A DNA stretch of 64,000 nt from assembly GCA_022496185.1 (NCBI GenBank), contig WTXG01000077.1, positions 93,512 to 157,511 on the forward strand. The letters run 5' to 3'. The DNA comes from Multifurca ochricompacta. Its lineage: Eukaryota > Basidiomycota > Agaricomycetes > Russulales > Russulaceae. The notes below the pieces were generated by a model. The model saw only the letters and a list, made by a program, of their open reading frames with translations, was not told the origin of the DNA and did no database searches. Below are positions 6,366 to 63,810 of the stretch, in pieces. The translations under genes and the position numbers were made by a program. Every line of letters starts with the position of its first letter. The stretch's first letter is position 1.

Positions 6366-7496
6366 TCATCGCGCAAGAGGCTTGCAAAGTGGGCTGCGTG
6401 TACGCGGAGTGTGAGGATGGTAATTTGGCGTTCTGGCGCCGCCGCGTTCATGAAAGCGCAGGATATGAGTCGCAACCAGCTGCGGCATGGTGTATATGCG
6501 CTTCTCTGCAGGAACCTGGGACGGGACACGTGGCGAGACTAGACCCGGTGGGGACCTAGGAGGTGGTGAATTGCCTAACATAGCGGGCGGCAGAGGCAGG
6601 GGTGGCAATGAGGCTGCAGGCAGTAGATGATGTGCACACTGTAACGTCGTGGGGCTGGCCGGCAGCGGGTCAGGGCTTACATCCATCGCGTCCGCACCTG
6701 CGATCATCTCCGGCGACGGCGGTGGGGCACGCGTACCCTCTAGGGGTACGGTCGATGGTAACGTATGGCTTTTGTCCTTCAAAGGGTTAGCATCCATCAC
6801 CGTCGGAGCAAAGCCACCTGTGCGAAGACGCTGGGCCAAGCGAACCACAAGCTGCTGGTCCAAGCCACGCAGCTCTTCTCTCACCCTTGCCACCACAATG
6901 TCCCTAGAACCTGGTCCATCTTCAACGATCATAACATCCACACCCATATCCACAGTCACATTCTGTCTCCTCTCAACCTCAGCATGCAAAGCAATGATAC
7001 TGCGGTGAACTGAGGCCGTAAACTGGAGATCCGCAAGCACGCGTTTGCTCTTTCTTGGCCGCTTGGAAACGGGACGAACGACAATTGTAACCGAGGTACG
7101 AGCAGAAGGCGGAGCAAGTGCACCGCTGCGCCGACGGCGAGCCTCAACGGGAAGGGGACGCTTAAGTCCTGGAGGCGGGTCATGCGTGATCGTATGTTCG
7201 CCTACGGGAGCTGTAGGGAACGGAATCACATTTTCCTCTCGTGGCGAAGAGTCCACGGGCATCGACGGGAGTGGCTTCCATGTGCGCAGAGCGGTTGTGC
7301 TCGTTAGGGCAACAGTTGCTGAGGCCTTTCGGGAAGGGAAACGCGGCGGAGGGTTGTAGTCAGTCTTCGAAGACTTACTCACGGGTTGCCTCAGTGGCAT
7401 CGCATTCGTTCTGTCACCGAACGCTCGTAAGGTTGAGACGATGGCTTTGGAGGTGAAACCTTCCGGAACGGAGAAAAGCGTTGGAATGTCGTACAT
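6366..7496 (-). CDS. Hypothetical protein, 376 aa, Pro/Arg-rich
   Basis: The uninterrupted minus-strand frame continues upstream to 7751, but I place the start at the ATG at 7496-7494 because a TATATAAA box lies at 7674-7681. This would put the upstream codons in promoter and 5' leader. The upstream in-frame sequence looks partly protein-like, so an earlier start is not excluded. The protein begins MYDIPTLFSVPEGF. Basic patches (KRPRKSKR, EARRRRS) suggest nuclear location, and there is a helical, charged middle (VARVREELRGLDQQLVVRL). The C-terminus has MPQLVATHILRF followed by a Pro/Arg-rich tail. That MPQL(I/V)A motif recurs near the C-terminus of the 834-residue protein at 25967-28471. No enzymatic domain is recognised. 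Confidence 0.65.
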   Translation of the reverse strand: MYDIPTLFSVPEGFTSKAIVSTLRAFGDRTNAMPLRQPVSKSSKTDYNPPPRFPSRKASATVALTSTTALRTWKPLPSMPVDSSPREENVIPFPTAPVGEHTITHDPPPGLKRPLPVEARRRRSGALAPPSARTSVTIVVRPVSKRPRKSKRVLADLQFTASVHRSIIALHAEVERRQNVTVDMGVDVMIVEDGPGSRDIVVARVREELRGLDQQLVVRLAQRLRTGGFAPTVMDANPLKDKSHTLPSTVPLEGTRAPPPSPEMIAGADAMDVSPDPLPASPTTLQCAHHLLPAASLPPLPLPPAMLGNSPPPRSPPGLVSPRVPSQVPAEKRIYTMPQLVATHILRFHERGGARTPNYHPHTPRTRSPLCKPLAR

Positions 7497-39151: not shown

Positions 39152-39745
39152 TGTAACGCCTGGTGTGGGTGTTCGTCACGACGTGTGATAAGTCACGTAG
39201 CGAAACTATGAAGTCAGGTGTGTACTGTCTTCCAAGTACACGGAGATTGGGTGAGAAGTCAACACAAAGGAGCTAATCCCTTAGTGCCGGTGAGTGGAAG
39301 AGTGCCAGAAGCACTGAGATGATTCAAGAGTCAGGTCTTAGGAATCACCCAGAAGGTAATGCACCAAGTTGATTAAGAAGTCGAGTCTAAGGCATACAGG
39401 CTATCTAGGCAGGCCTTATATATGTAATAGAGGTCAGAGTCTGAATCGGAGTACTGTACTTGATGTATCAACAAGGTTGTAATGTAACCAAATGGGGAAC
39501 GGAGTCAGTGTGGGTCAGATGAGAATATACGTAGACGAATCCAGTATAGTCGTGATTCTGGTGGGAAAATACATAAGAGTCCTTGTGTAAGATATGAGTC
39601 AGAGATAAGCACAGCCTGGGTCAAAGATAAGGAACAAATGGGTACAATGGAAGTCATAACATGGTCAACAAAGGGGCAAACAGGGCCAAAGGACATGTCA
39701 CATGATGGAAAAAGAAAACAAGATGACGCAATGGGGTTCGTAACA
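39152..39745 (-). repeat. G1 left (3') LTR
   Basis: TGTAACGCCTGG to GGTTCGTAACA, 594 bp. In the first 200 positions it differs from the right LTR at 12 sites, all CpG-type transitions. Confidence 0.93.
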
Positions 39746-39776
39746 TTACCCCCTCTCTAAGTCCTAGCAGAGCCAG

Positions 39777-40677
39777 CTAGATTGGCATACCATCGTCATC
39801 CTGGACCAGGGAGAGATAGTTGTCGGCTACAGCGTAGTGGTCAGCATTGTAGTTTTCCTTTTCTTCATCAGTGGGGCAAACTGTTACGACCTCTGCCATC
39901 CGTCCCCGTTTTCTTTCACCTTCCCAACGATGACCCCTCCTTGCCACCCACCTTACACTTCTCAATCACGTCCCCATCATGGGATCCGTCACATGCCTTA
40001 CTTCCATCCCCGTGACTTGCTTTGTATCTGTTGACGCGATGTTTACTTATGCTTGACTTCTTATCTCCTTATCATCTTATCTTTACGACCGGACACTTAC
40101 TTAATACCCTATCAGAAGCTAGACTTTACGCCGTCCGCTTCCATATATTCGGGCCCACTTGACTCCGTATCCTTATCTTGTAGACGCCCGTTGAGTTACG
40201 TATATAAGTCCGCTGTAGCTACGCTGTAGACCTTAGACTCGACTTATTGAATACATCGGTGTTTGTCTTTCGGACTTTCCCCTTGACTCTTTGACTTGAC
40301 CATCTCAGTGCTTTTGGCACTTCCCGCTTAACATCGTCACTAGGGAGCAGCCCCTTTGACTTTGACTCCTCCCCTGAAACTCCAGGAGGTCCTATTGGCC
40401 TCTTATCTGAACCTACGAACACAAGCTGTCGCACAAGTCGTGCAGAACGTCTCACACCGGACGTAACACAAACGTGTGTTTGTAGAAAACCGTAGGGCCC
40501 CTGTCTCCCACAGCGAAAGCAGCCATTGTAAACATGACAGTTGATTTCTCAGTGACCGGCATTGTGGGAGAGACATTTGCCACACCACCCTGAAGGGTTC
40601 TGGACAGTAGGGGCCTGCATGAGTCGTCGGAACAAACATTGGCGACTCCAATGCGAGGTACTCTGGCAGTGTCTACA
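39777..40677 (-). pseudogene. G1 third module, Cys-rich tail, split by a solo LTR
   Basis: Follows the TGA at about 40675 (AAGAAATGATGT, an Arg site). The frame then reads CRHCQSTSHW, a GWCGKCL box and GPYGFLQTHV up to the solo LTR at 40468, and continues beyond it as NADHYAVADNYLSLVQ to the stop at 39777. Cys/His spacing suggests two or three zinc knuckles. The same tail occurs in G2 and G3. Confidence 0.75.
39882..40468 (+). repeat. Solo LTR (587 bp), G2 family, inside G1
   Basis: Starts TGTTACGACC and ends CCGGACGTAACA, the reverse complement of the G2 LTR ends, flanked by CAAAC at 39877-39881 and 40469-40473. It keeps TATATAAG and AGACTCGACTT in the G2 arrangement on the plus strand. It is richer in CpG than the other LTRs, so it may be a recent insertion. 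Confidence 0.92.
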
Positions 40678-42439
40678 TCATTTCTTGGCCATGGGACAAC
40701 ACCAGCTGAGGTGGTACTTGCTGCTGCAGCGCCAGCAAAGCTTACCATTGGGGTTTTCGTGGAGACATGGCATTTTGAAGCAATGGGGATTAAGCCAAGG
40801 CGCAAGGTTGAGGTGGCGTCGAGGAAGTGGCCGCGTGAAAATATCAGTGTACCGTTCAGAGATGATTTGGTATGCTTCTCCCTGTTCCAACCTTGTCCTG
40901 ATGCTTGCCAGATGGTGTTCTATATCGAAGACCCCTCGATTAATCTTTACCATTTGCCGTTCATAATCACGGCGCTGCATCTCTAAATTGTCCCGGAGCA
41001 CCTGGAACTTGCGGAGTTGTGCAATTTTGGCAGTCAGTCGCAGCATTCGTAGGTCCCGAAGTACCTCATTAATTGTGAAGGCACGCGGGTTGTGGGCTGA
41101 GAGGTGTTGCAAATGTTCAGGCCCTAGGACATAATGTAGCCGATCGACGCTCTTTTCTTCTAGGTAGACTGGGGCTCCATAGACAGGCCCTCCTTTCTCC
41201 AAGCATCCGGCTATGTCCATACCTTTGTTGGTGTAATAAATATATTTGGCCACCTCTGTAGTGCCATCATTCTTGGATGATGGGATCATGAGCGGGAAGT
41301 AAAACCATGAGCTGGGGTCGTTGGGGAAGAATGGGAACTCAGGGGACTCGTCACCGAAATCCACATTGATCAGGTCGTTGGGATGGGGGTGTTTGGGCAG
41401 ATTAAAATCTTCGTCAATGTCAATGATTCTGTCCCCTTGGGCCACTTGGGCAGTCGCATCGTAGTCAATAGGAGAAAGTGGGCAAGAAGGAGGATGCACA
41501 GGAGTAAGTACGGGAAACGCATCGATGGCAGCAGAGGTATGGATTTTAGATGACGACATGGGTGAGTTTCTGGTCAATTGTGGGGGAGAGAGCTGTTCAG
41601 CAACTCGTATTTTCTCTGGCTCTTTATCTGCCTCTGGGTGGCATCTATAGAAGTCTTCAATGAGCTTGGGCGCAAAGACATCCGCAGCAGGTTCCCACAA
41701 GTTGTCAGCATCTGGGAATCCCTTCCATTTGATCAAGTAATGAAGCTTCTGGTTGTGCCCTCGACCCTTCCATTTTGTGTCAGCAATACGTTCTACTTCC
41801 CACTCTGGCTCTCTGTCAACTAGGTCAGGGGGGGGTCTGGGAAAATTCTGTCCATGAATAGAAGTTTCTTTGTACAGCGTCAGAAGGCCGGCATGGAAGA
41901 CAGGATGTATCTTCCAGGTGGCAGGTAATGTGAGTTTGTACATGATGTCCAAAAGCTTCTGTTCAATTACAAAGGGGCCGTGGCGTCTGGGAGCTAATTT
42001 TGCCGTTGGGTGTGACGTGTGGATATTGCGCCCTTCTAACCAGACTTGATCTCCGACCCGGTAGGGCGTAAACCTAGTGGGCTTCTTGGCTAGGGTCCTC
42101 TGCACCTTCTGAAGGTTTCTATTGGCCGATTCCCTTATCTCCTTCCATTGGTCGATACGCTGTGTCACAGATGGTACATTCATGGGTTTGTCTGTCCATG
42201 TGGTGCGAGGGTCCCATCCCATAATAAGAGAGAAGGGAGTGGCCTTCGTCGTTCCATTTGGCCAACTATTGTGCGCAAACTCAGCTGTCACCAGCCATTC
42301 TGCCCAGTCATTCTGTCGTTTGTTACACCAAAATCGTAGGTATTGTTCTAGCCATTGATTTGTTCGTTCCGATTGACCATCCGTCTGGGGGTGATATGTG
42401 GTGGAGATGTTCTGCTGAATGTCGAGACGTTTACAGAGG
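40678..42439 (-). pseudogene. G1 integrase C-terminus, chromodomain and third-module core
   Basis: After a TGA at 42442 (Arg site in G2) the frame gives the rest of the integrase catalytic core (YHPQTDGQSERTNQWLEQY, with the catalytic Glu). It continues through the GPY/F-type region (KLAPRRHGPFVIEQKL), PVFHAGLL, and a chromodomain (LHYLIKWKGFPDADNLWEP, about 41690-41745). Unlike G2, it runs on without a stop into the third module: acidic Pro-rich linker, YFPLMIPSS, VAKYIYYTNKGMDIAGCLE, VYGAPVYLEEK, a coiled-coil-like stretch, then PCLHENPNGKLCWRCSSKYH. Chromodomains guide integration to marked chromatin; the third module has no known role that I recognise. Confidence 0.85.
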
Positions 42440-44461
42440 GCTCAGGTGAACATGGAAGCAAATCGTGGGTCTCGGTCAGAAATAATTTTCTGTGGAAGTC
42501 TGTAGTGTTGGTAGGCATGATCCAGGTAGAGTTTTGCAACTCCTTCTGCTGATATTGTCTCATTACAGGGGATGAAGAGGGCAGCCTTTGAATAGTCGTG
42601 GTCTGTAATGGTGAGTATCAAGTCGTATCCTTGTGACTGTGGAAGTTTGATGATGAAGTCCATGGTGATGGTCTGGAAGGGAGCTGTTGCAACTGGTGTG
42701 ATGGGTGAAAGTGCCAGTGGTCTTGGGTGAGTGTTTACTTTATTTGCCTGGCATTCTGCACATCCTTTGACATATGCCTCAACATCCTTTTTCATGTTTG
42801 GCCACCAGTAATCTTGTTTGGCAAGGGCATAGGTATTTGCGATGCCAGGGTGTCCTGCAGAGGGAAGGTCGTGGTGGAAATGAATCACCCCCCTCTTAAT
42901 GTTGTCGCCACTGGTGACAACCAATCGATTGCCATCTTTCCACCAGAGGCTGTCTTTCATTTTTATGTTATGTGGCTCTGCCCAGGATTTGCATAGTTCC
43001 TGGTTCATGTTCTGCGTCACTTGGGCCCATAGATCCATGTCATGGAGGCTAACAATGGCAGTCTTCGCAAAGACATCTTCTGGTAAAACGACAATATTGT
43101 CATTGTCATTTTCCCCTTCGTCACATCCGGTTGGTCTGGACAGGGCATCAGCTCGTGCATTACAAGCTCCAGGTAAATGCTTGAGTGTGAAGTTGTACTC
43201 TTCAAGCTCCAAGACCTCTCGTGCTATTTGTCAGCTGATCTTGTGCGGTTCTCTCCAGTAAAGAAGGTTGGAGTGGTCTGTATAAATGATGGTTTTATGT
43301 GGGGATCCAGCCAAATACGGTCGCCAATGTCGTAATGCTTTTACAATAGCCAATAATTCCCTGTCCCAAATGTCATAGTTTCTTTCTGCTGATGAGAATG
43401 TTTCCGAGTAGAATGCGACGGGATGAAGGATCCCTCCCATGTCTCTTTGTGACAAGACTGCGCCATTGGCATACATGGAAGCATCAACCTCCAGTTCAAA
43501 GGGGTTGGCTAAGTCAGGTTGAATAAGAACTGGCTCGGAGCTGATGATCGCTTTTATCTGGTCAAATGCTTTCTGTTGTACTTCATCCCAATGCCAGGGC
43601 ACATCTTTTTTCAACAAGTCGTTAAGCAGTTGGGCGATGGCCGAGAATCCTTTGACGAAGTGCCGGTAGAAATTGCAAAATCCAATGAATGACCTGACAT
43701 CTTTGGTACACTGAGGGGCGGTCCATTCTCGAATGCCTTGCACTTTTACAGGGTCCATGCATACTTGCCCTCCTTCCAGGATAACACCCAAATATTCAAC
43801 GGTCTTCTGTTCAAAGGAGCATTTGGCGGGTTTCAAATAAAGGTCATGTTTTGCCAGAATTTCTAGTACCTCGTGAACTCGGTTCAGTGGTGGTGAATGT
43901 CGTCTTTTGTGGCTACTAGGATATCATCCATATACACCATGACCTCTTCTGTAAGGATCAGGTCTTGGAAAATATGATTCATCATGGCTTGGAAGGTCGC
44001 CGGTGAGTTCATTAAGCCAAAGAACATAACGTTGGGTTCGAAAAGTCCTTGATTGGTCTTGAAGGCAGCTTTAGGCTGGTCGCCTTCTCGGATACGAATG
44101 TTATTGTAACCCCAGCAAACGTCCATTTTCGAAAACAGGGCTTTGTCACGCATTTTGTTGATGATTTCTGAGATCAGAGGAAGGGGGTAGTTATTCTTCA
44201 CCGTGAGTTTGTTAATCTGTCTGTAGTCTTGTACTGGTTGCAGTTTCCCATCCTTCTTTTTAATGAAGAAGAAGGGTGAAGCATAAGGCGAATTCGAGGG
44301 TCGTATATATCCTTTTGCCAAATGTTCCTCCAGGAAAGCGGAGAGCGCTTCCTTCTCAGGCTGAGACAGCGGATAGATCTTGCAATCTACCGACTGTGGG
44401 GCATTCAGGACAAAGTCAATGGCGTGATCCCAAGGTTGAGAAGGAGGGAAGCGTTGCGACT
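42440..44461 (-). pseudogene. G1 reverse transcriptase, RNase H and integrase N-terminus
   Basis: RT palm ([30 protein letters not shown] intact) runs to about 43884, a frame change follows near 43880, then the RT thumb and connection (YLGVILEGGQV), RNase H (FELEVDASMYANGAVL; YTDHSNLLYW) and a TGA at 43231 (Arg-like site). The integrase zinc region (HFHHDLPSAGHPG; GCAECQANK) and the first two catalytic Asp residues (TMDFIIKLP; SDRDPRF) follow. The integrase frame ends at the TGA at 42442. Confidence 0.88.
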
Positions 44462-44486
44462 CTTCTTCTGAGAAAACCTTCCAATG

Positions 44487-45128
44487 TCAGTGGTATTCTG
44501 CTGGCACTACTTCTTCGAATGTCTTTTCCGGGTTCTTCTGTGCCTCTGCCTGGGCTAATTCTGATGCCTTCATAACATAGCAATACACCTGATCCACAGG
44601 TTCCATGTCACTCCAGGTGACAGCCGATCCCATAACAATAGCATGGGTCAAGGGGTGCCGCGCAGCATAGTCGTATCCCAAGGATGTGATAAGAACTGGG
44701 TAGAAATCTTTATCCATTGTTGCTTCTGCCCAGTTGATTCTGGGTTCGAATGCTGCTAGCCATGGGTACCCCAGAACCATATCTTCATCTCCTAGATCTG
44801 TAATGAGGAAGTGAAGTTGCTTAGTTCGTTCCCCAACCTGCACTTCCAAGTCACAGCAGTGCGTGATCTTTCTGGCTTTGTTGGCCGTCCCGTCTATATT
44901 CCAAATGTTTTTCTCCTGGGGAAGTAACTGTGTCCCCAGTCCTAATGTTTTCTGAAGTCTTTGACTGATAAAATTGTCTGTTGCTCCAGAGTTGATCAAT
45001 ATTTGTCTGTCGGCTGTCTTCTGTTTGGTTTCAAAGTGTACTGGTATTTTTAAAGACTTGAAACGACTAGTGTATACAGAAGTTACATGGAGTGCTCTTG
45101 CCCAGGCCGATGGGGTCAAGCCAATCAA
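44487..45128 (-). pseudogene. G1 protease and spacer, start of pol
   Basis: Reached by a -1 shift from gag at 45121-45134. It opens FLIGLTPSAWARALHVTSVY and carries a retropepsin site, ILINSGATDNFIS, where the catalytic Asp of DSG is Asn (AAC; G3 has GAC). The DMVLGYPWLAAF flap/fold region follows. The frame ends in TGA at 44487 (PAEYH stop HW), a stop also present in G3, after which RT begins. Loss of the catalytic Asp should abolish processing. Confidence 0.85.
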
Positions 45129-45134
45129 AAATCC
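45121..45134 (-). promoter_or_regulatory. Conserved -1 frameshift site at gag/pol junction (G1)
   Basis: Minus-strand GGATTTTTGATTGG. The gag frame reads GAT TTT TGA; pol reads GGA TTT TTG ATT. Slipping back one base at UUU keeps perfect pairing and avoids the adjacent UGA. The same 14 bases are at 53289-53302 (G2) and 62257-62270 (G3). Confidence 0.65.
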
Positions 45135-46653
45135 TTCTGGCCAAAGGCCTTGTCGACGATTAGGGCACGTACTGCCTCATCCTCATTCATCATATGTTCC
45201 CATATTGCTGCTGGTTTCTGTTCTTTAGTTTTCAGGGCGGTTGCTGGGTTTTCTTTTACTGGGGTCGGTAGATTTTGTACTGGTGGTGTTGTGGTAGTAG
45301 AGGCTACTGTTGCTTCAGCAGCACGGACCGTCTTCTTTGGGCAAAATTGTGACATGTGCCCTTGTGCTCAGCAATGGAAGCAGCATCCTTCCTTCATCAG
45401 GTTTTTCTTTTCATCATCGGTGAGGGCTGCACGAGCTTTGGTGTGATCTGCTGATGTGTCCATGGCATTGGGGTCTCAGGAAGTAGTGGGTTTTGCCCCA
45501 AATGCCGCCTTCCACTGATCGTGGGTTCTGCCCTTCTTTGTGTCTACTCCAAAGCGCGTCTGGAAGTCCAGATAATCTTGCTGCTGCATCCTAGCAGCAC
45601 TTGTCCACTGGCTCCATGACTCAGGGTGATGGAATTGGATGATATTTTTCACCAAGGGGTTGGGCAGCCCCTGGGAGAAGAGGTCAAGCGTTGCCTCTTC
45701 ATTCACATCATACCCTGCTCTTTTGGCCAGGTTGCGGAATCGGCTACATAGCCATCTAAATCCCCTCTCTCCATTTTGAGGGATTTCAATTCTCTGGCAG
45801 CCTTCTGCTTGGCCTGCCCATCCGTGAAGGCGTCTTTAAATCTCTGCGCCACTGTATCCCACAGATCCTCGTCTGTGGTTCTGGTTCCAGCTGTAACTCT
45901 GTCGTTCAGCCATTCGATCTGCTCCATTGTCCAATCATCGATGGAATCCCCTCTAATAAGTGAGAGGAAGAGGTTGGTTCGTTGGAAAGGGTTCACAATT
46001 TGCGGGATGTCATGATTGAAATTTTTGAACGTCTCGAACTTGAGCATGAACTTTTTGCTCTGAGATCGATCACCGGTGAACGTGGTTGGCAGGACTCCCG
46101 TAAGGCATCCTGATGGGGGAGGGAGGTTCGGAGCAGGGACAATTGGAGCAGGGTCTGGTAACTGTGCAGCAATGGTTGACATTGTTGGGTATGTGAGGGT
46201 CGGGGTGTCTGAGGTCTGTCGTGTGATCTGGGGAGAGACTAAAGCAGATGTTCTGAACATAGTACTCTCGGGTGCAACTGTCTGAGCCGTAAAACTAGGG
46301 GCTATGACTTGTGCATCTTCACTGCTTTCTTCGATATATTCTTCAGTTTCGGAGTCTGTGACGATGGCTGGAGGATTCTCTCTCCAAGGTCCTAAGCCGT
46401 ACTCTGGTGGGGCAGGTCCTGTGGTAACCCAGGAACAATGGCTTCTAGAGTAACGGATGCGGTACCAGACTTGTTTCTGTTCATCGTATTCAACTGGCTG
46501 GTACTGGTCATCGTGATAGATGTAGTATCCAAACTTGGTTTCAAAGTCTTTCCAGATGGCAGAGCCAAGGACTTGTTGTGAAAGATTATCCTTGTCTTGA
46601 CAGTTGATGAGTTCTTCATTGTGCAAGGCCTGACTGTGGCTGGATGAAGCCAC
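45125..46653 (-). pseudogene. G1 gag
   Basis: Homology starts at a GTG (46653-46651) followed by ASSSHSQ; no in-frame ATG lies nearby in any of the three copies. Capsid-like region (GYYIYHDDQYQPVEYDEQ; KNFNHDIPQIVNPFQRTNLF; WTMEQIEWLNDRV; FTDGQAKQKAARELKSLK). A one-base deletion near 45738 changes frame. TGA stops lie at 45478-45476 and at 45370-45368, the latter inside the CCHC knuckle (CFHC..AQGHMSQFC); both fit Arg CGA decay. Gag ends at the TGA 45127-45125 after AFGQKDF, where the frameshift signal sits. Confidence 0.85.
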
Positions 46654-46662
46654 GGTGGAGGG

Positions 46663-46673
46663 AGACTCGACTT
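46663..46673 (-). promoter_or_regulatory. G1 self-complementary primer-binding site
   Basis: Two bases inside the 5' LTR. Minus-strand AAGTCGAGTCT is the exact complement of AGACTCGACTT at 46902-46912 in the LTR, which lies about 34 nt downstream of TATATAAGG (46938-46946), at the predicted transcript 5' end. This is the Tf1-type self-priming arrangement rather than a tRNA site (no TGG start). Confidence 0.72.
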
Positions 46674-46675
46674 AA

Positions 46676-47269
46676 TGTAATGCCTGGTGCGGGTGTTCGT
46701 CACGACGTGTGATAAGTCGCGTAGCGAAACTACGAAGTCAGGTGTGTACTGTCTTCCAAGTACATGGAGATCGGGTGAGAAGTCAACACAAAGGAGCTAA
46801 TCCCTTAGTGCTGGTGAGCGGAAGAGTGCCAGAAGCACTGAGACAATTCAAGAGTTGGGTCTTAGGAATCACCCAGAAGGTAATGCACCAAGTCAATTAA
46901 GAAGTCGAGTCTAAGGCATACAGGCTATCTAGGCAGGCCTTATATACATAATAGAGGTCAGAGTCTGAATTGGAGTACCGTACTCGATGTATCAACAAGG
47001 TTGTAATGTAACCAAATGGGGAACAGAGTCAGTGTGGGTCAGATGAGAATATACATAGACGAATCCGGTATAGTCGCAATTCTGGTGGGAAAATACATAA
47101 GAGTCCTTGTGTAAGATATGAGTCAGAGATAAGCACAGCCTGGGTCAAAGATAAGGAACAAATGGGTACAATGGAAGTCATAACACGGTCAACAAAGGGG
47201 CAAACAGGGCCAAAGGACATGTCACGTGATGGAAAAAGAAAACAAGACAATGCAACAGGGTTCATAACA
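46676..47269 (-). repeat. G1 right (5') LTR
   Basis: TGTAATGCCTGG to GGTTCATAACA, 594 bp. Holds the TATA box and the 11-nt block matching the primer-binding site. Drives minus-strand transcription. Confidence 0.93.
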
Positions 47270-48111
47270 CTCTCCACACAACCAGCATCCAACTTCACCA
47301 TAGACTATGTCTGATCCCAAATCATCCTTGACAAACAGCAGTGCATCAGAGACTCTGGTGACCCTGCCACTGCCTATTTTGTGAAAGCAGCCAAAGGATC
47401 TGGAAAGAAAAGGCAACAGGGGCAGAAACCAAAGAAACATTGTACTCACTGCGATATTGACGGACATGATGTAACTGAGTGCCGGAAGCTAAAGAAGAAG
47501 GAGAAGGAGGAGGAAGCATCTAAACCCCCCTTGACTCCCAAACCTGAGGCGGCAGTGAAGGTTGCTCTAAGCACTGAGGCAGGCACTGAGGAAGGGGACG
47601 GCACCATTCACCTGTTCAAGTCACTCCAAGAAGCAGCGTCAAAGAATACCCTAGATGATCAGTGGATTGTTGACTCCGGAGCATCACGCACCATGTGTTC
47701 CCACAGAGAATGGTTCCAATGTTTCCTACTGCTTACTACCCATGTGAAGATTATGCTGGGTGACAACAGTGCCATCTATGGCACTGGAGTTGGGGATGTG
47801 CTTGTACAGATGCAAGCGAACAATACCTGGAACACAGTCCTACTGCGAGATGTCTTGTATGTCCCAGATCTCCATGGAAATCTTGTGTCCATAGGCCAAC
47901 TTGCAAAGCGTGGGGCATCAGTCCGATTCGAGAAGGAGGGCTGCAAGGTTTTCAGTCAGAAGGGGATGCTCATATGTGAGGGACACTTACTCTGTGAACT
48001 GTACATTCTGCATGTCTGTATCACCCCCAATAAATCAGTGCATATCGTGCCCATTATCCCTTTGCTGCCTGACAGAAAAGAACCTGCTGACAAGCCAATT
48101 GCACTCCTCAC
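47270..48111 (+). pseudogene. Copia gag C-terminus and protease
   Basis: The frame resumes after G1 with a TGA at 47312-47314 (YV stop SQI, Arg site). A basic stretch and a CCHC knuckle (CTHCDIDGHDVTEC), a Lys/Glu linker, and the aspartic protease site WIVDSGASRTMCSHREWF with a normal DSG follow. Then comes the region before the integrase (VLLRDVLYVPDLHGNLVSIG). Cut at 48111 by G2. Confidence 0.9.
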
Positions 48112-48690
48112 TGTTACATCCGGTGCGGGACATTCCACATGACTTGTGTGACAGCATACTATGCGGGTTCAGATAAGAGACCAATAGGGTCCCTTGGAGT
48201 TTAGAGGTAACGAGTCAAAGTCAAAGAGGCTGCACTCTAAGACGATGTTAAGTGGAGGGATGCCAGAAGCACCGAGACAACTTGAGCTCAAGGATCAAAG
48301 GGAAGTCCAGAAGACAAACACCGATGTATTCAATAAGTCGAGTCTGAGCTCTACAGTGTAACTATAGCCGACTTATATACGTAAGGAGGTGAGCATCTAC
48401 CGATAAGAATCGCGGAGTCAAGTGGGCCCAAATATCCGGAAGCGGAGGGCGTAAAGCCTGGCTTCTACTGATAGGGGATTAAGTAAATGTCCGGTCATAC
48501 GATAAGAAGATAAGTGATAAGCAAAGATAAGGGTAGACAAATATAAACAAACAGGCAAGTCATGGGGATGGACGAAGAGCATGTGACGGATCCCACGATG
48601 GAGACGTGATCTGATAATGAAGTGTGGGTGGCAAGGAAGGGTCATCGTTGGGTAGGAAAAAGAACACAGGAAGAGACAGGGTTCGTAACA
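48112..48690 (-). repeat. G2 left (3') LTR
   Basis: TGTTACATCCGG to GGTTCGTAACA, 579 bp. Adjacent internal polypurine tract at 48691-48705. Confidence 0.93.
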
Positions 48691-48721
48691 TTACCCCCTC
48701 TTCTGGTTCTAGCAGTCCCGG

Positions 48722-49954
48722 CTAGAAATGACTTGTACTGTCATCATCTTGTATCAACTCCAGGTAGTCGTCAGCTACATTACAGTCATCCATGCTGTAT
48801 GACTCCAGCTCCTGCGGGCATGCATGGGTACAAAGAAACCCATATGGGCCACGCTGACCACATGCGTGGCACAAGTCATAAATGGGGCAGTCGATCTCTT
48901 TATGCCCGGTGTTGTGACGAAGACACTTGCCACACCAGCCTGATGGGTTGTTGATCATCGGGGCCACCCCTACGCGTCGGAAAATGCAGTGTCGGCTCCA
49001 ATGAAGATTGCTTCGGCAGTGTCGACACCACTTGCGGTTGAGAGGGCAGTTCCAGCTGATATGATACTTGCTATCACATCACCAGCAGGTTTCCCCGTGC
49101 AGATTCTCACGCAAACATGGCATCTTGAGTCAGCTCAGCAGCAATGTCAGGGTGGCCCCCAGTGTTCGAGGAGGGAGAGGCTGTGCATAGGTGTTGGTGT
49201 ACCTTTCAGTGATCATCTGATACGCATCTCCCGCCTCCAACCTCTTCCTGATCTCAACAATCTCTTGTTCCAACTGGAACATCCCATTCGTCAACCTTGC
49301 CATCATTTTCACATGCTCCTTGTACTGCTGGTTCAGCGTTCTCCGCAAGGTGATGTTCTTCCGCAGCCTCATGACTTCCGCCTTGAGGCGCGGGAGCCTC
49401 ATATCATTCATCACCTCATCAATCACAAAGGCATGACAGTCCTCCGCAGCGAGATGGCCCAGCTGCTCATCAGTCAGCGTGTGGTGAAGTCGGCCCGTGT
49501 ACCTTTCTTCCAGATAAACGGGAGCCCTGTAAACCAGCCCATCCTTCCTCATGCACCCTGCCACATCCATTCCTCCATTGGTGTAATAGATATACTTCAC
49601 AATGGCCTTGGAACCATCGGCCATTGTGATCTCCAGAGGGAAGTACATTGATGAGTTGGGGTTGTTGGGGATGAAGGGGAACTCTGGGGCTTCATCATTG
49701 ATCTCCCCGTTGAGTAAGTCATTGGGATGGGGCTCTTCACAGTGGGTGAAGTCGTCGTTCAGGTCTGGGGATTGGTTCTTGATATGGGCTTCTGCAGCTT
49801 CATAGTCGATGGGGGAGGAGGGACAAGTGGATGGATGAGCAGATGGGAAATTTTTGACGACAGTCATTGGGGAAGCGAAAGCGTCGATGGTGGCAGAGGC
49901 GGTGATGAAAGACATGATGGATTGTTCAGTGGTAGTAGTTCGCTGGGGTAGCAT
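48722..49954 (-). pseudogene. G2 third module (separate reading frame after pol)
   Basis: Begins around 49954, after the TAA that ends pol at 49991. A 274-codon open frame starts with an ATG-like opening (MSFITASATIDAF is the first internal Met). Acidic Pro-rich linker, FPLEITMADGSKAIVKYIYY, DVAGCMRKDGLVYRAPVYLE, then a long coiled-coil-like stretch (MNDMRLPRLKAEVMRLRKNI; LEQEIVEIRKRLEAG). A frame change near 49130 leads to the Cys-rich tail (NPSGWCGKCLRHNTGHKEID; CHACGQRGPYGFLCTHAC) ending at 48722. It has no signal peptide, transmembrane segment or envelope feature despite its env-like position. G1 and G3 carry the homologous module fused in frame to pol. Confidence 0.8.
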
Positions 49955-49990
49955 ATACTGGGGAATCTGAGAGAGTCTGGGACTGTTCTT

Positions 49991-50638
49991 TTAACTGTTT
50001 TTGGGCGCTTCTGGGTGTTGGGTATGGAACTCCGCAATAAGGACTGGGGCAAAGATATCTCTGGCTGGTTCCCATGAGTTGTCAGAAGCTGGGAATCCCT
50101 TCCACTTAACTAGGTAGTACAGCTTGCGCCCTCGGCCTTGTTGCTTCAAGTCTAGAATGCATTCTACTTCCCACTCCTCTTCCCTGTTGATAAGGTCTGG
50201 CGGGGGTCTTGGGAAGTTTTCCCCATGCAGGGACATTTCTTTGTAAGGTGTGAGTAGTCTGGCATGGAAGACTGGATGAATGCGCCATGCAGGGGGGAGT
50301 TTGAGTTCATATGACACATCCGACAGCTTCCTTGTTATCTTAAAGGGTCCGTGACGTTGGGGTGCTAATTTCGCTGTTGGGTGTGACATGTGAATGTTCT
50401 TCCCTTCCAACCATACCAGGTCATTGGTCCGATAAGGTGTGAACTTTGTGGGTTTCCCTGCCAGGGTCCTTTGCGCCTTCAACAGGTTTTCATTGGCCGA
50501 TTTCCTAATCTCTTCCCATTGGTTGATATGCTGCATGGCTGAAGGAACGTTCGTTGGCTTTCCCATCCATGTGGCTCGGGGTGTCCATCCCATGATAAGT
50601 GAAAATGGGGAGTGTTTCATGGTACCATTGGGCCACAA
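49991..50638 (-). CDS. G2 integrase C-terminus and chromodomain
   Basis: Open frame with the post-catalytic integrase region (FSLIMGWTPRATW; TAKLAPQRHGPFKITRKL; PVFHARLLTPYKEM) and a chromodomain (LYYLVKWKGFPASDNSWEPA), ending in TAA at 49991. It belongs to the same polyprotein as the frame upstream and is separated from it by a TGA at about 50687 (WCN-G stop QDDWADW). Confidence 0.8.
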   Translation of the reverse strand: MWPNGTMKHSPFSLIMGWTPRATWMGKPTNVPSAMQHINQWEEIRKSANENLLKAQRTLAGKPTKFTPYRTNDLVWLEGKNIHMSHPTAKLAPQRHGPFKITRKLSDVSYELKLPPAWRIHPVFHARLLTPYKEMSLHGENFPRPPPDLINREEEWEVECILDLKQQGRGRKLYYLVKWKGFPASDNSWEPARDIFAPVLIAEFHTQHPEAPKNS

Positions 50639-50686
50639 GTTATGTGTGAATTCTGCTGTTGCAAGCCAATCGGCCCAGTCATCCTG

Positions 50687-52611
50687 TCATCCATTGCACC
50701 AGAACCGCAGATACTGTTCGAGCCACTGGTTTGTTCTTTCCGACTGTCCATCTGTCTGTGGGTGATACGCCATGGAGATGTTTTGAGCAATGTCCAGTGT
50801 TCTGCAGAGCGCCCTGGCAAATGTGGATGTGAAGCGTGGGTCACGGTCTGAGATGATCTTTTCAGGGAGTCCGTAGTGTCTGTAGACATGGTCCAGGTAA
50901 AGTTTGGCCACTCCCTCCACCGTAATGGACTCATTGCAGGGTATGAATAGTGCTGCTTTCGAATAGTCGTGGTCAGTGATGGTTAGGATTGAGTCGAACC
51001 CTCTGGAAGTGGGGAGTTTGACAATGAAGTCCATGGCGATAGTCTGGAATGGTTGTGAAGCCATTGGCGTAATTGGGAATGGTGCTGGCAGGTGTGGGTG
51101 CGTATTCACTTTATTGGCCTGGCAGTCTGCGCATCCCTTCACATATTCTTCCACATCCTTCTTCATGTTATGTGCGTTGGCCCATGCTTCGCATAACTGC
51201 TGATTCATATTCTGCGACACTTGGGCCCATAAATCCATGTTGTGAAGACTGACAACCGCCACTTTTGCGAAGATTTCTTCAGGGAGTACTGTGATATCAT
51301 TATTGTCCTCCTCACCACCGTTCAGATCTGGCTGTCGTGATAGTGCATCTGCGCGTGCATTGCGACTACCTGCAATATGCTTCAACACGAAGTTGTATTC
51401 TTCCAGTTCTAGAACCTCGTGAGCAACTCGCCGACTGATCTTGTGGGGCTCCTTCCAGTAGAGTAGGTTGGAATGGTCAGTGTGAATAATGGTCTTATGA
51501 GGGGTTCCTGCTAGGTATGGTCGCCAGTGCTGTAGTGCTTTCACAATGGCCAGTAATTCTCTATCCCAAATATCGTAGTTTCGTTCTGCCGGTGAGAACA
51601 TTTCTGAGTAGAAGGCAACTGGGTGAAGCAACCTGGTCGCATCTCATTGATTCAGCACCGCGCCATTGGCAAAGTGAGATGCATCGACCTCTAGTTCAAA
51701 AGGTTTTTCTAAATCTGGCTGTAGAAGAACCAGCTCTGAGCTGATGATGTTGCGGATTTGCTCAAAGGCGCGTTGCTGTTCCTCTGCCCACTGCCATGGC
51801 ATGTCTTTCTTCAATAGTCCGTTTAATGGCTGGGCGATGCCAGAGAATCCTCGAACAAATCGTCAGTAAAAGTTGCAAAACCCCATGAAGGACCGCACAT
51901 CTTTGACACACGTGGGTACAGGCCATTCCCGGACCCCTTGGATTTTTACCAGGTCCATTCGCACATGCCCTCCTTCTAGGATAACTCCCAGGTATTCCAT
52001 GCTTGGCTGTTCAAATGAGCATTTAGCTGGTTTGAGGTATAGGTCATGTTCATGTAAGATATCCAGTACTTGGTGTACCCGTTCTCGATGATGGGCAAGG
52101 TCGTTTGTAGTGGCTACCAGGATGTTGTCCATGTACACTACCACCTCGCCGGTAAGAATGAGATCACGGAAAATGTGATTCATCATGGATTGGAACGTGG
52201 CTGGCGAGTTGGTGAGGCTGAAAAACATGACATTTGGTTCAAAAAGCCCTTGGTTGGTTTTGAATGCCGCTTTACATTGGTCCCCTTCCTTGATTTGGAC
52301 ATTGTTGTATCCCCAGCGGACGTCCATTTTAGAGAATAGGGACTTGTCTCGCATGGTGTCAATGAGCTCCGATATAAGTGGTAATGGTAGGCATTTTTCA
52401 CAGTGTAGGCATTGATTCGTCGATAATCCTGGACGGGTCGAAGTTTTCCGTCTTTCTTCTTGATAAAGAAGAATGGTGACGCATATGGTGACTTTGACAG
52501 ACGGATATACCCCTTTGCAAGATGCTCCTTGAGAAATGCAGTGAGCGCCATTTGTTCCGCCTGTGACAGTGGGTAGATTTTACAGTCAATTGCTGATGGA
52601 GTGTCGGGCAC
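50687..52611 (-). pseudogene. G2 reverse transcriptase, RNase H, integrase core (zinc region deleted)
   Basis: RT in two overlapping frames (52611 to about 52395, then 52354-51863) with palm motif VVYMDNILVA, the second Asp being Asn. A TGA at 51863 and further breaks near 51650 precede RNase H (RNYDIWDRELLAIVKALQHW; HTDHSNLLYW) and integrase. The frame passes from AHN directly to MKKDVEEYVKGCADCQANK. Compared with G1, about 57 residues holding the two zinc-binding His are missing in frame. The DDE core remains (AMDFIVKLP; SDRDPRF; QSERTNQW). Confidence 0.85.
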
Positions 52612-52635
52612 AAATTCAATAGCATGGTCCCATGG

Positions 52636-53302
52636 TCATGCAGGTGGGAAGTGTTGGGATTCCTCCTCTGAGAAGACCTTCCAATGGTGGTGATACTCCT
52701 GTGGCACTGCCTCTTCAAAGGTCTTTTCCACCTGTCCCTCTATCACCTTCTGCGCGAGTTCCGATGCCTTGGTAGTGAAGCCATAGCCCGGATCTTCATC
52801 CTCTTTCACCCTGCATGCTACTGAATGTTGGGCAGCATAGTCATATCCCATCGACATGATAAGGACAGGGTAGAATTCCTTATCCATGGTTGCGTCGCTC
52901 CAGTTTATTTTTGGTTCGAATGCCGCAAGCCAGGGATATCCTAGGATGAGATCTTCGTCACCTAGGTTGGTGACTAGGAAGTGGATGACTTTTGTTACTT
53001 CCCCTGTTTGGACATTGAGATCGGTGTAGTGTGTATCTTCCCTGCTCAGTTGGCAGTTCCATCAATATTCCAGATATTCTTTTCCTGGGGAGTGCCAGCA
53101 TTCCCAATCCCATGGTCTTTGCCATTCGCAGGCTGATAAAATTGTCGGTGGCACCTGAATTGATCAGGATGTCACGGTCGGCCGTTTTCTGTGTAGTCTC
53201 GAAATGTACTGGTATTTTCAACGACTTGAAGCGACTAGTATACACAGAGGTTACATGTAGCGCTCGTGCCCAGGCCGATGGGTTTGAGCCAATCAAAAAT
53301 CC
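52636..53302 (-). pseudogene. G2 protease region of pol
   Basis: Starts after the -1 site at 53289-53302 with FLIGSNPSAWARALHVTSVY. The retropepsin site reads ILINSGATDNFIS (Asn for Asp). A frame change near 53090-52960 precedes the MDKEFYPVLIMSMGYDYAAQ segment, and the frame leads toward EEAVPQEYHHHWKVFSEEE. Confidence 0.8.
53289..53302 (-). promoter_or_regulatory. Conserved -1 frameshift site (G2)
   Basis: GGATTTTTGATTGG again. In G2 the gag frame reads KAFAKKDF then TGA (53295-53293) and pol continues in the -1 frame. Flanking sequence has diverged from G1, but these 14 bases have not. Confidence 0.65.
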
Positions 53303-54798
53303 TTTTTCGCGAACGCCTTTTCTACCAAGATGGCTCTCACTTCTTTGCTTTCCTTCATCATACTCGCCCATATCTCCTGTGCTTTTTCTTCTTTGTCCTT
53401 TTGTCGATAGTTGGTGGGTTATTGCGGATGGGCATGACCGTTGCTTCCGCTGCCCATGCCCCTTTTTTCGGGCATTCCCTCGACATGTGCCCCTGGGCCT
53501 TGCAGTGAAAGCACCTCCTTCCTTCATCAGGGTTTGCCTTTCATCTTCAGTGAGTGCAACCCACGCTCTGGTTCTGTCAGCGGAGGTGTCCATGGCATTT
53601 GGATCCCTCTGACTGGCGTGTATGGGTTTAACTCCGAAGGTGGCCTTCCATTGGTCGCAGGTCTTTCCCTTCTTCGTGTCAACCCCAAAGCGTGTCTGGA
53701 AGTCCAGGTAGTCTTGCTGCTGTTGTCGAGCAGCGTCAACCCATGTGTCCCAGTCATTGGGGTGGTGGAATTGGATAATGTTCTTTACCAGGGGTTGGGC
53801 AACCCCTGGGAGAAGAGGTCCAGAGTTGCCTCTTCATCAGTATCATAGCCGGCTCTGTTGGCCAGACTTCTGAACTTTGCTACATAGGTGTCCAGTTCTC
53901 CTTTCTCCATTCTCAAAGCCTTGAGTTCCCGAGCAGCCTTCTGCTTGGCCTGCCCATCTGTAAAGGCATCTTTGAACCTCTGGGCAATAGTTTCCCAGAG
54001 GCCTTCGCTGGTGGTACGACGACCACTCTCGATCTGTTCATTCAGCCATTCCAGCTGTTCCATTGTCCAGTCATCTACCACCTCTCCTCGAATCAATGAC
54101 AGAAAGAGGTTGGTGCGCTGGAAAGGGTTGATGATCTGGGGGACATCATGGTTGAAATTTTTGAAGGTGGTAAATTCCAACATAAATTTTTTGCTTTGTG
54201 ATCAGTCTCCTGTGAACGTTTGTGGTAATACACCTGACAGCCGTCCCGAGGGTGGGGGAATGTTGGGTGGTAACATGACTGGTGGGGGTGGAGGAGGAGG
54301 AGCCGGATCTGGAAGTTGGGCTGCAATGGTGGACATGTTCTGATAAAATGGGGTGATGGTGTCGGTGGACTGTATAGAGATCTGGGGAGTTGTCAAAGCA
54401 GGGGCTCTGGACGTGACAACTGCAGGTGCAACTGGGGATGTAGTCGATGCTAATACCAGTGCTTCTTCACTATGTTCTTCTACGTACTCTTCTGGCTCGG
54501 AGTCTGTAACAATGGCCGGGGGATTTTCCCTCCACGGTCCTAATCCAAATTCAGGGGGAGTGGGTCCTGTAGTGACCCAAGAGTGTCAGCTGTCTGAGTA
54601 TCGGATTTGATACCAAACTCTTTTCTCGTCATCGTATTCTACCGGTTGGTATCTTCCATCGTGATAGACATAGTATCCAAACTCGGACTCAAAGTCTTTC
54701 CAGGTGGCAGAGCCAAGTACCTGTTGTGAAAGGTCAGGCTCGTCCCTTCGTTCAATGGGTTCTTCTTTAAAGAGGGTCTGACTGCGGCTGGAAGCCAC
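53293..54798 (-). pseudogene. G2 gag
   Basis: Opens at GTG (54798) with ASSRSQ, like G1. Capsid-like part (GYYVYHDGRYQPVEYDDE; KNFNHDVPQIINPFQRTNLF; FTDGQAKQKAARELKALR). A base missing in the GGGG at 53791-53794 (five G in G3), another near the CCHC knuckle (CFHCKAQGHMSREC, about 53480-53530) and a third in an A-rich run near 53390 scatter the frame. It ends at KAFAKKDF-TGA. Confidence 0.82.
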
Positions 54799-54804
54799 GA
54801 TGAG

Positions 54805-54815
54805 AGACTCGACTT
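54805..54815 (-). promoter_or_regulatory. G2 self-complementary primer-binding site
   Basis: Minus-strand AAGTCGAGTCT, two bases inside the 5' LTR, exactly complementary to AGACTCGACTT at 55041-55051 in the LTR. That block lies about 32 nt after TATATAAG. Same arrangement and spacing as G1. Confidence 0.72.
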
Positions 54816-54817
54816 GA

Positions 54818-55396
54818 TGTTACGTCCGGTGCGGGACGTTCCACACGACTTGTGTGACAGCGTACTACGTGGGTTCAGATAAGAGACCAATAGGGTCCCT
54901 TGGAGTTTAGAGGTAACGAGTCAAAGTCAAAGAGGCTGCACTCTAAGACGATGTTAAGCGGAGGGATGCCAGAAGCACCAAGACAACTTGAGCTCAAGGA
55001 TCAAAGGGAAGTCCAGAAGACAAACACTGATGTATTCAATAAGTCGAGTCTGAGCTCTACAGTGTAACTATAGCTGACTTATATACGTAAGGAGGTGAGC
55101 GTCTACCGATAAGAATCGCGGAGTCAAGTGGGCCCAAATATCCGGAAGCAGAGGGCGTAAAGCCTGGCTTCTACTGATAGGGGATTAAGTAAATGTCTGG
55201 TCATACGATAAGAAGATAAGTGATAAGCAAAGATAAGGGTAGACAAATATAAACAAACAGGCAAGTCATGGGGATGGACGAAGAGCATGTGACGGATCCC
55301 ACGATGGAGATGTGATCTGATAATGAAGTGTGGGTGGCAAGGAAGGGTCATCGTTGGGTAGGAAAAAGAACACAGGAAGAGACAGGGTTCGTAACA
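54818..55396 (-). repeat. G2 right (5') LTR
   Basis: TGTTACGTCCGG to GGTTCGTAACA, 579 bp. All differences from the left LTR seen over the first ~300 positions (about 11) are CpG-type transitions. Confidence 0.93.
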
Positions 55397-56449
55397 CTCG
55401 CCCAGAGCACCTCAAAAGCTGACCTCCTTACCTGGCACCGGCGTTTTGGGCACATCAGTTCAGACACTATCCTCCAGATGGCTCAGGACGGGCTAGTGAA
55501 AGGACTTGATATTGATGGCAGAACTGTGCCTACACCAACACTCTGCGAACCATGCCTCAAGGGCAAGCAAACGTGTGCTGAAATCAGCAAGTCCACGGAA
55601 ACACGAGCTGACAACATACTCGGCCATGTCTTCTCAGATGTGTGTGGAAAGCTCCCCACTCAATCTCACAAAGGTTATCTCTATTTCCTCACCTGGGTGG
55701 ATGACAAGTCATGAAAGGTTTTCATTGTGGGTCTGCGTGAAAAGTCAGAGGTACATCGACACCTACAGGATTTCATTGCCATGGCTGAGCTCGAAACTGG
55801 ATGTCATGTCAAAGTCCTTCGCTCCGATGGAGGGGGCGGGTACATTGCTGACACCACCCAAACTTACTTGAGGAGAAGGGGAATTAAGCATGAAATGACA
55901 ACAGCAGACACCCCCCAGCACAATGGAGTAGCCGAGCAGATGAATCAAATGCTCCTGGATAGAGTCCGTGCAATGCTTATCGATGCCGACTTGCCTCAAT
56001 CCTACTGGTTTGACACACTGCAGTACGCTGCCTATTTACACAATATCACACCTACCCGCGCACTTGATGGCTCCACTCCTGAAGAAGCCTGGACAGGATC
56101 CAAGCCGGATGTCTCTGGGACCTGCATCTTTGGTTGCTGGGCATTTGTTCACATTCCCGACAAGTTCAGGACGAAGCTGGGGGCTAAATCACTCACCTGC
56201 ACTTTCCTTGGCTTCGCCCCAAACTGCAGTGCTTTCCAAGTTGTGCATTGTCCCACCAGGCGTTTTCTGGAGTCCTGCAACGTTATATTCGATGAAGGGG
56301 GCCCAGATAGGCATGACCACATTGTAATTGAACATGACAATGATGATGCAACTGCACTTACCCAACCAGAAAGCCATGAAATCCCAAGCCAGGCTACCCC
56401 TGAGAGCATCAAACCTGTTGAACTTGATCCTAACACTCCAATGTTGTGA
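55397..56449 (+). pseudogene. Copia integrase
   Basis: GAG-pre-integrase/HHCC region (LTWHRRFGHISSDTILQM; CEPCLKGKQTC), then the catalytic core with Asp (HVFSDVCGKLP), Asp (VKVLRSDGGGGY) and Glu (HNGVAEQMNQMLLDRV) in place. A TGA at 55712-55714 (DDKS stop KVF, Arg site) interrupts it. The frame ends at TGA 56447-56449, also an Arg-type site in the linker before RT (PML stop RSKRTT stop APVR). Confidence 0.9.
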
Positions 56450-56452
56450 CGT

Positions 56453-58111
56453 TCCAAGCGCACAACTTGAGCACCTGTACGCGATGATGACCCCAAGTTC
56501 TCAGTAAGCTCCTATGACAGACAAGGAAAATACACTGCACATGCCAACACTGCTCAAGTAGACAATGACCCACGCTCCTACACAGAAGCTATGAAGCATC
56601 CTGACACTGCTGAGTGGGAAGCTGCATGCAATGAAGAACAACGCACCTTTGAGCACATGGGAGTATATGACATTGTTCCCAGGCCTGCAAATCAGAAAGT
56701 TGTTGGGAGCAAGTGGGTTTTCTGCATCAAGCGAGGCCCAGATGGAGAAGTTGTCAAGTACAAAGCACGCATTGTGGCCCAGGGTTTCACCCAAGTAGAG
56801 GGCATTGACTATGATGAAACCTTTGCACCTGTTGCAAAATTTACATCCCTACACACCATTCTTGCACTTGCTGCCGAACACAACTTTGAAGTTCACCAGA
56901 TGGACATGAAGGCTGCCTACCTAAATGGCGAACTCAAAGAGGAGATCTTCATGGAACCCCCCCTGGGTTTTGACATCCCTGATGGCATGGTACTGCGGCT
57001 AGTCAAAGCTGTTTATGGCACTAAGCAAGGAGGGTGCGTATTCTATGAAAACATAAAGGCTCACCTCCAGCAGATCGGTTATCAACACACTGAAGCCGAT
57101 CATGCCATATTTGTCCAAAAAGGTGGTGACACACTCTCCATCATAATCTTGTATGTCAACGACATCACACTGGTCAGCAACAATAAGGAAAGCTTAATCA
57201 AAGACAAAGAAGCATTAAAAAGGATGTACGAAATTACAGACCTTGGAGAAATCAACTGGCTACTTGGCATGCACATCACACACAATTGTGAAGCTGGCTG
57301 GATATCAATCTCCCAAGAGAAGTACATTGAAGAAACACTGGCACGTTTCAAGAAGACCAATGTCCGCCCGATCTGCACCCCATGTCTTGCAAATGAACAC
57401 CTCAAAAAGGTCGAAGTCCCAGAAGTCAATGTCAAGGCCTACCAACAAGCCATAGGGTCCCTAATGTATCCCATGCTGGGAACTCATCCCAATCTCGCTT
57501 TTGCTGTAGCCAGCCTTGGGCAACATGTGGCAAAACCAGGGATTGAACATCAAAAGGCGCTTGAGCGCGTTTTCCACTATCTCAGGGCAACAAGTGGCTG
57601 GAAACTTACCTTTCAGCAGGGCACTACTGAAGGGACAGTTCTAAAAGGGTACACTGACATGGATTGGGCCAGCGACATTAATGACCGAAAATCCACCTCT
57701 GGATATGTTTTCAAACTTGGGGGTGGTGCTGTCAGTTGGAGCTCCAAGAAACAAAGCTCAGTTGCATTGTCAAGTACAGAAGCTGAGTATGTTGCAAGTG
57801 CACATGGAGCGAAGGAGGCCATCTGGCTCCAACACTTGCTGAGCGAGATAAACTATGCACAAAAGAATCCGACCACACTCCTCATTGACAACCAGTCTGT
57901 GATGGCCATCGCCAAAAATCCAGAGTTCCATGATCAAACCAAGCATATTGAAGTTAGGCACCACTTCCTGAGGCACAAGTATGAAAGCCAAGACATAGAA
58001 CTCAAATACATTTCAACAAATGATCAAGTCGCGGACATCTTGACAAAAGGACTGCCCTGGGAGAAACATGAGTTGTTTGCAAAAGCAATGGGCCTACAGC
58101 GTGCCGACTGA
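56453..58111 (+). pseudogene. Copia reverse transcriptase and RNase H
   Basis: After a further TGA at about 56468, an open frame of over 500 codons gives RT (VGSKWVFCIKRGPDGEVVKY; MDMKAAYLNGELKEEIFMEP; LYVNDITLVSNN with Asn for the first catalytic Asp of YVDD) and RNase H (KGYTDMDWASDINDRKSTSG; SSTEAEYVASAHGAKEA; KHIEVRHHFLRHKYE). It ends at TGA 58109-58111, just before polypurine AGGGGGCG and the 3' LTR. Confidence 0.92.
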
Positions 58112-63799: not shown

Positions 63800-63810
63800 A
63801 GACTTGACTT
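63800..63810 (-). promoter_or_regulatory. G3 primer-binding site, one base decayed
   Basis: Plus-strand AGACTTGACTT in place of AGACTCGACTT, a single CpG transition from the G1/G2 site. Two bases inside the LTR. Confidence 0.6.

Follow-up and report, generated by a model that had tools for sequence, protein, structure and literature searches.

The stretch of DNA analysed here, called the window throughout, comprises 64,000 nucleotides of contig WTXG01000077.1 from the Multifurca ochricompacta assembly GCA_022496185.1. It carries two complete LTR retrotransposon insertions, G1 and G2, and a third element, G3, whose LTR is cut by the contig end (Table 1). The flanks of G1 carry the TSD CTCTC/CTCTC. 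The coding part of both complete elements is split into separate open frames. Those of G1 match the Pfam domains RVP_2, RT_RNaseH_2, Integrase_H2C2, SH3_Tf2-1, and Chromo, giving the Ty3/gypsy order PR-RT/RH-IN with a C-terminal chromodomain. The G2 frames match RT_RNaseH, Integrase_H2C2, rve, SH3_Tf2-1, and Chromo, and one frame of G3 matches Retrotrans_gag. In both G1 and G2 the 3' LTR is directly preceded by AGAGGGGGTAA. The three elements and their many relatives are best explained as Ty3/gypsy chromoviruses of the Tf1/sushi kind. Copia-type plus-strand frames (Pol_BBD; SH3_retrovirus; RVT_2) occur on both sides of G2, at 47381-48142 and 55727-58111, which suggests that a Copia element was the insertion target of G2. 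No Pfam match was obtained for seven long frames examined within window positions 1-35000.

Table 1. Elements of the window and their putative priming features (positions within the 64,000-nucleotide stretch).
Feature	Position	Strand	Remarks
G1, Ty3/gypsy chromovirus	39152..47269	(-)	Complete insertion; broken reading frames; solo LTR inside
G1 5' LTR, 594 bp	46676..47269	(-)	TSD CTCTC
G1 TATATAAG box	46939..46946	(-)	Starts 34 nt ahead of block
G1 5' LTR putative self-primer block AGACTCGACTT	46902..46912	(-)	Predicted RNA positions 1-11
G1 putative primer-binding site AAGTCGAGTCT	46663..46673	(-)	2 nt downstream of 5' LTR
G1 open frame with integrase C-terminal SH3_Tf2-1 and Chromo	40678..42291	(-)	Pfam
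Solo LTR within G1	39882..40471	(+)	TSD CAAAC; right end accurate to within a few bases; block 40235-40245, TATA 40201
G1 3' LTR	39152..39745	(-)	94.6% identical to 5' LTR; block 39378-39388
G2, Ty3/gypsy, complete insertion	48112..55396	(-)	TSD CTCAC/CTCGC
G2 5' LTR, 579 bp	54818..55396	(-)	
G2 5' LTR putative self-primer block AGACTCGACTT	55041..55051	(-)	
G2 putative primer-binding site AAGTCGAGTCT	54805..54815	(-)	
G2 3' LTR	48112..48690	(-)	97.6% identical to 5' LTR; block 48335-48345
G3 putative primer-binding site	63800..63810	(-)	One CpG change; LTR cut by contig end

In G1 and G2 the sequence AAGTCGAGTCT is exactly complementary over 11 nt to a block within the LTR. The site is preceded by ACA-TT in G1 and ACA-TC in G2, corresponding to the LTR end plus two bases. 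Exact matches to the 11-mer number eight over both strands of the window, with 0.04 expected by chance, and the complementarity given in the preliminary description is confirmed at both loci. That description had the site starting two bases inside the 5' LTR; the two-base offset is right, but the site lies downstream of the LTR and outside it. It also placed the block 32-34 nt downstream of TATATAAG, and the distance is indeed 34 nt from the start of the box in G1, G2, and both 3' LTRs, with a gap of 26 nt from the box end. The same 34-nt spacing recurs at three further LTR blocks of the window (36269, 36608, and 40235); the preliminary description had the solo LTRs keeping the block next to TATA. 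The G3 site reads AAGTCAAGTCT, which differs from AAGTCGAGTCT by the single CpG change originally noted; the LTR with which G3 was said to keep the pairing is cut by the contig end.

This arrangement is best read as self-priming. Judged from the distance to the TATA box, whose start lies 34 nt upstream, transcription would begin at AGACTCGACTT. Nucleotides 1-11 of the RNA would then loop back across some 235 nt to pair with AAGTCGAGTCT just past the LTR, in keeping with the complementarity and the predicted fold. If the parallel with Tf1 holds, RNase H would cut after nt 11 and reverse transcriptase would extend the freed end into U5. A helix predicted just inside the primer:site pairing, and kept in both families of copies described below, may help to hold the fold.

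Most Ty3/gypsy elements are primed by a tRNA. The same could hold here, with a host tRNA, entire or cleaved, acting at the site and the LTR match being incidental, and the 30 of 62 tRNA matches compared cover only part of the set. However, the site starts with AAG and not with TGG. The longest complementarity to those 30 of 62 matches, which represent at least 18 distinct sequences and were compared with CCA added, is 6 nt; the tRNA match named as an alternative in the preliminary description is not seen beyond this length. Nor would an incidental LTR match give the exact 11-nt edge or the excess of TG/CA copies described below. With 30 of 62 tRNA matches compared, priming by a tRNA is thus very unlikely.

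The pairing can be followed across the window's own assembly (53.8 Mb, 605 contigs). A scan with the junction pattern ACANNAAGTCGAGTCT, allowing one mismatch, gave 2,615 matches, a number that includes LTR blocks on the other strand, versus 13 for the reversed pattern used as control. Seven exact block/site haplotypes, counted with cleaner genome-wide joint patterns that leave out CG/CA and CG/TG, together make up 870 junctions, which are not all independent insertions because some contigs look duplicated. Written as block/site at the CpG, these are CG/CG (532), TG/CA (111), TG/CG (62), CA/CG (57), CA/CA (39), TG/TG (35), and CA/TG (34). Near-identical element copies sit at matching places, for example on contigs C594/C597 and C202/C313, which suggests that the assembly has redundant contigs.

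Relaxing one side of the pattern at a time gave a similar picture. When only the site was required (25 junctions with at most one mismatch in the site, two rows coming from the exact pattern), 22 had a block 232-240 nt upstream, 17 of these being exact and 5 differing at the CpG only. The other three are L009 and L016, which are interrupted or without a block at that spacing, and L022, which is cut. When the site was free to vary, the 100 rows listed of 385 matches included 5 that look unrelated, and 94 of the 95 element-like rows carry one of three CpG forms, the remaining one having other changes. With the block left free, one of three CpG forms was found in 99 of the 100 rows listed of 1,309 matches.

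Individual copies were compared in a set of 105 units. The distance from TATA start to block is 34 nt in 91 of these, 35 nt in 9, and 33 nt in 2, with no TATA box found in the other 3 of the 105. Two units with odd block spacing were excluded, leaving 103. In these, pairing is complete (100%) at positions 1-5 and 8-11 and the CpG positions form Watson-Crick pairs in 86% and 84%; these percentages within the 11 nt are inflated because 80 fetched stretches were chosen by exact two-sided patterns, while the edges are unaffected. The two bases before the block pair in 0% of units, and positions 12 and 13 in 4% and 0%. Farther out some pairing returns, at position 14 in 102 of 103 units and at position 15 in 79 of 103. 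The edge at nt 11 fits the predicted cleavage between nt 11 and 12. The units fall into family A, which is G1-like (20 copies), and family B, which is G2-like (83 copies). The families share ~72-75% DNA identity over aligned parts and both keep exactly these 11 pairs.

These counts bear on a reading without priming, in which the block is a promoter or initiator only, the site is a leader element only, and the complementarity is ancestral and kept by young copies. The copies are similar, block and site vary almost solely by CpG change, and the block occupies a promoter position, all of which would fit. However, two families that have diverged to about 72-75% identity keep these 11 pairs while the adjoining pairs are absent, and the sole amplified double-change class is complementary and present in both LTRs. 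A role in promotion and in the leader alone is accordingly highly improbable.

Predicted folding of the leader RNA is consistent with self-priming. Of 103 leaders, 98 have the primer:site duplex, with at least 9 of 11 pairs, in their minimum-energy fold. In both families LTR sequence shortly behind the primer pairs with U5 sequence immediately ahead of the site in an inner duplex, with 98% and 94% of cells paired in families A and B; sliding by 1-3 columns lowers this to 24-50%. Many paired changes occur in a U5 hairpin of 6-8 pairs, which is 100% and 99% paired, versus 1-66% when slid. The inner duplex and the hairpin were derived from the same alignments, and their excess over the slid versions is partly built in. 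The hairpin sits about 85-90 nt before the primer site, for example in L012 and L004. Two of the three duplexes of the Tf1-type fold, primer:site and inner LTR, are thus predicted in both families. No third 'pretzel' duplex, which would use sequence beyond the site, was detected; duplex energies there equal those of shuffles (simple letter shuffle). Within about 10 bases downstream of the site lies ATGGCTTC, or GTGGCTTC in other copies (e.g. L006 and L012), a word that may be the gag start.

A generic scan for a TATA box followed by an 11-mer with its reverse complement downstream, run over 284,546 bases, returned 21 matches with known block forms and 38 others, with 1 in the shuffled control. 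In two of the 38 (L009 and window position 36235) the known block is read in a shifted register, and 34 arise from inverted repeats in L015 (28), L014 (4), and L006 (2). The last two are single matches in L010 and L050 that do not lie two bases after a CA end. In L015, positions 4786-5498, a span of 700 bases has three occurrences of GAATGGTTTTGTGG, covering both orientations, beside TATA-like words. One register of this repeat lies two bases after ACA, but the layout in both orientations is unlike that of an LTR pair. Viral contigs were also scanned for relatives and none was confirmed.

The strongest support for self-priming comes from co-variation at the CpG. Were CpG decay on the two sides independent after insertion, the four classes with changes on both sides would be about equally common. 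Instead, TG/CA has 111 copies versus 34, 35, and 39 in the other three. A tree was built from 103 LTR stretches with block and site removed; the copies were picked by haplotype and the tree is therefore silent on frequency. In it, 26 of the 42 TG/CA copies sampled stand together in a group (support 0.897) that includes none of the 61 other copies; it comprises clades of 4 and 21 copies (support 1.0 and 0.979, respectively) plus one further copy. Three members of this group, L053, L066, and L089, look like duplicates of each other. The remaining 16 TG/CA copies are scattered over the tree and provide no evidence, because the CpG decays on its own.

The 3' LTR bears on when the change arose. Its expected place was examined for 20 of the 26 grouped copies; 8 have no block there and all 12 that do carry TG. 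Within the corresponding 12 LTR pairs, identity is 95.5-100% across 229-272 bases, and four pairs reach 100%. Because all 12 of these 3' LTRs carry TG and 4 of the 12 pairs are identical, the change in the LTR block most likely predates insertion, in step with that of the site, in a lineage that moved recently. Among other double-change copies used as control, the 3' LTR had a block in only 3 of 20 (TG, CG, and CA), too few for comparison. The control stretches were 111 bases long versus 301 in the test set, although all 12 test offsets (6,858-6,902) would fit inside 111 bases. The mirror complementary class CA/TG does not exceed CA/CA (34 vs 39), and the compensated pair is essentially one event. 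A wobble intermediate, with TG in the block tolerated through a G-U pair, predicts TG/CG in excess of CA/CG and is not supported by the counts (62 vs 57). The paired changes between site and LTR block sought in the preliminary description are thus found in the TG/CA excess and its exclusive clade, essentially as one compensated lineage.

The same copies argue against a primer supplied in trans by another RNA containing AGACTCGACTT, such as one transcribed from a solo LTR or from a different copy. Potential sources abound, as the LTR block region occurs more than 1,000 times in the genome (1,309 matches to one family-B pattern). However, a trans primer need not co-vary with the site of its own element, whereas TG/CA copies carry both changes, and prediction gives a stable intramolecular fold. 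A primer in trans is extremely improbable. Self-priming of the Tf1/sushi type, as the preliminary description had read the arrangement, is backed by the co-variation and by the lack of any tRNA match over 6 nt among the 30 of 62 compared, and overall it is very probably how these elements prime.

Passages of the cited papers present self-priming as experimental in Tf1 and as proposed from sequence in other elements. In Tf1 the first 11 nt of the RNA act as primer after a cut following nt 11 (PMC7175516), and the leader forms a three-duplex 'pretzel' whose third duplex uses sequence downstream of the site (PMC10085805). Self-priming is described as a common feature of Tf1/sushi elements (PMC10085805). 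It has been proposed for Tj1 of S. japonicus, whose site is complementary to the mRNA 5' end (PMC4600332), Tcn1 of Cryptococcus neoformans (PMC7175516), and most plant elements of the Tcn1 clade (PMC6317226), while for one spikemoss Tcn1-like element the relevant passage reports that neither tRNA priming nor self-priming was found (PMC2864245).

The elements described here resemble Tf1/Tf2 of Schizosaccharomyces pombe, as these are portrayed in such passages, in the complementarity of an 11-nt predicted RNA 5' end to a site beside the 5' LTR, in the chromodomain, and in a duplex of LTR sequence just after the primer with sequence next to the site. The likeness is one of arrangement, with the Tf1 primer sequence itself left out of the comparison. 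Unlike Tf1, they lack a detected third duplex, are present in hundreds of copies (870 junctions), and occupy a different host. By description they are also like Tj1, in a different host, with a site complementary to the mRNA 5' end, which is here a predicted one, and like Tcn1 and the plant Tcn1 clade in the proposed self-priming. These elements were not recognised in the titles and abstract starts of literature on self-priming, where an earlier description under a family name is possible, and the eight literature matches to the 11-mers are, by titles and abstract starts, unrelated to retrotransposons. The mechanism is already known; the contribution of this analysis is therefore the set of copies together with the compensated lineage.

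It is also conceivable, although rather doubtful, that the primer and its landing site pass from copy to copy as a pair that renews itself, with the site rewritten from the RNA 5' end in each cycle. Such rewriting could occur because plus-strand DNA synthesis would use the RNA primer as template too. If true, any alteration of the LTR block would automatically pass to the site, and in the TG/CA lineage nature would have recorded one such event.

With hundreds of copies in one genome, primer and site can be compared directly, and one lineage changed both sides and stayed mobile. The rule that primer and site must pair thereby becomes testable by counting, and the compensated lineage offers a case in which to study how such pairs can be altered and still work.
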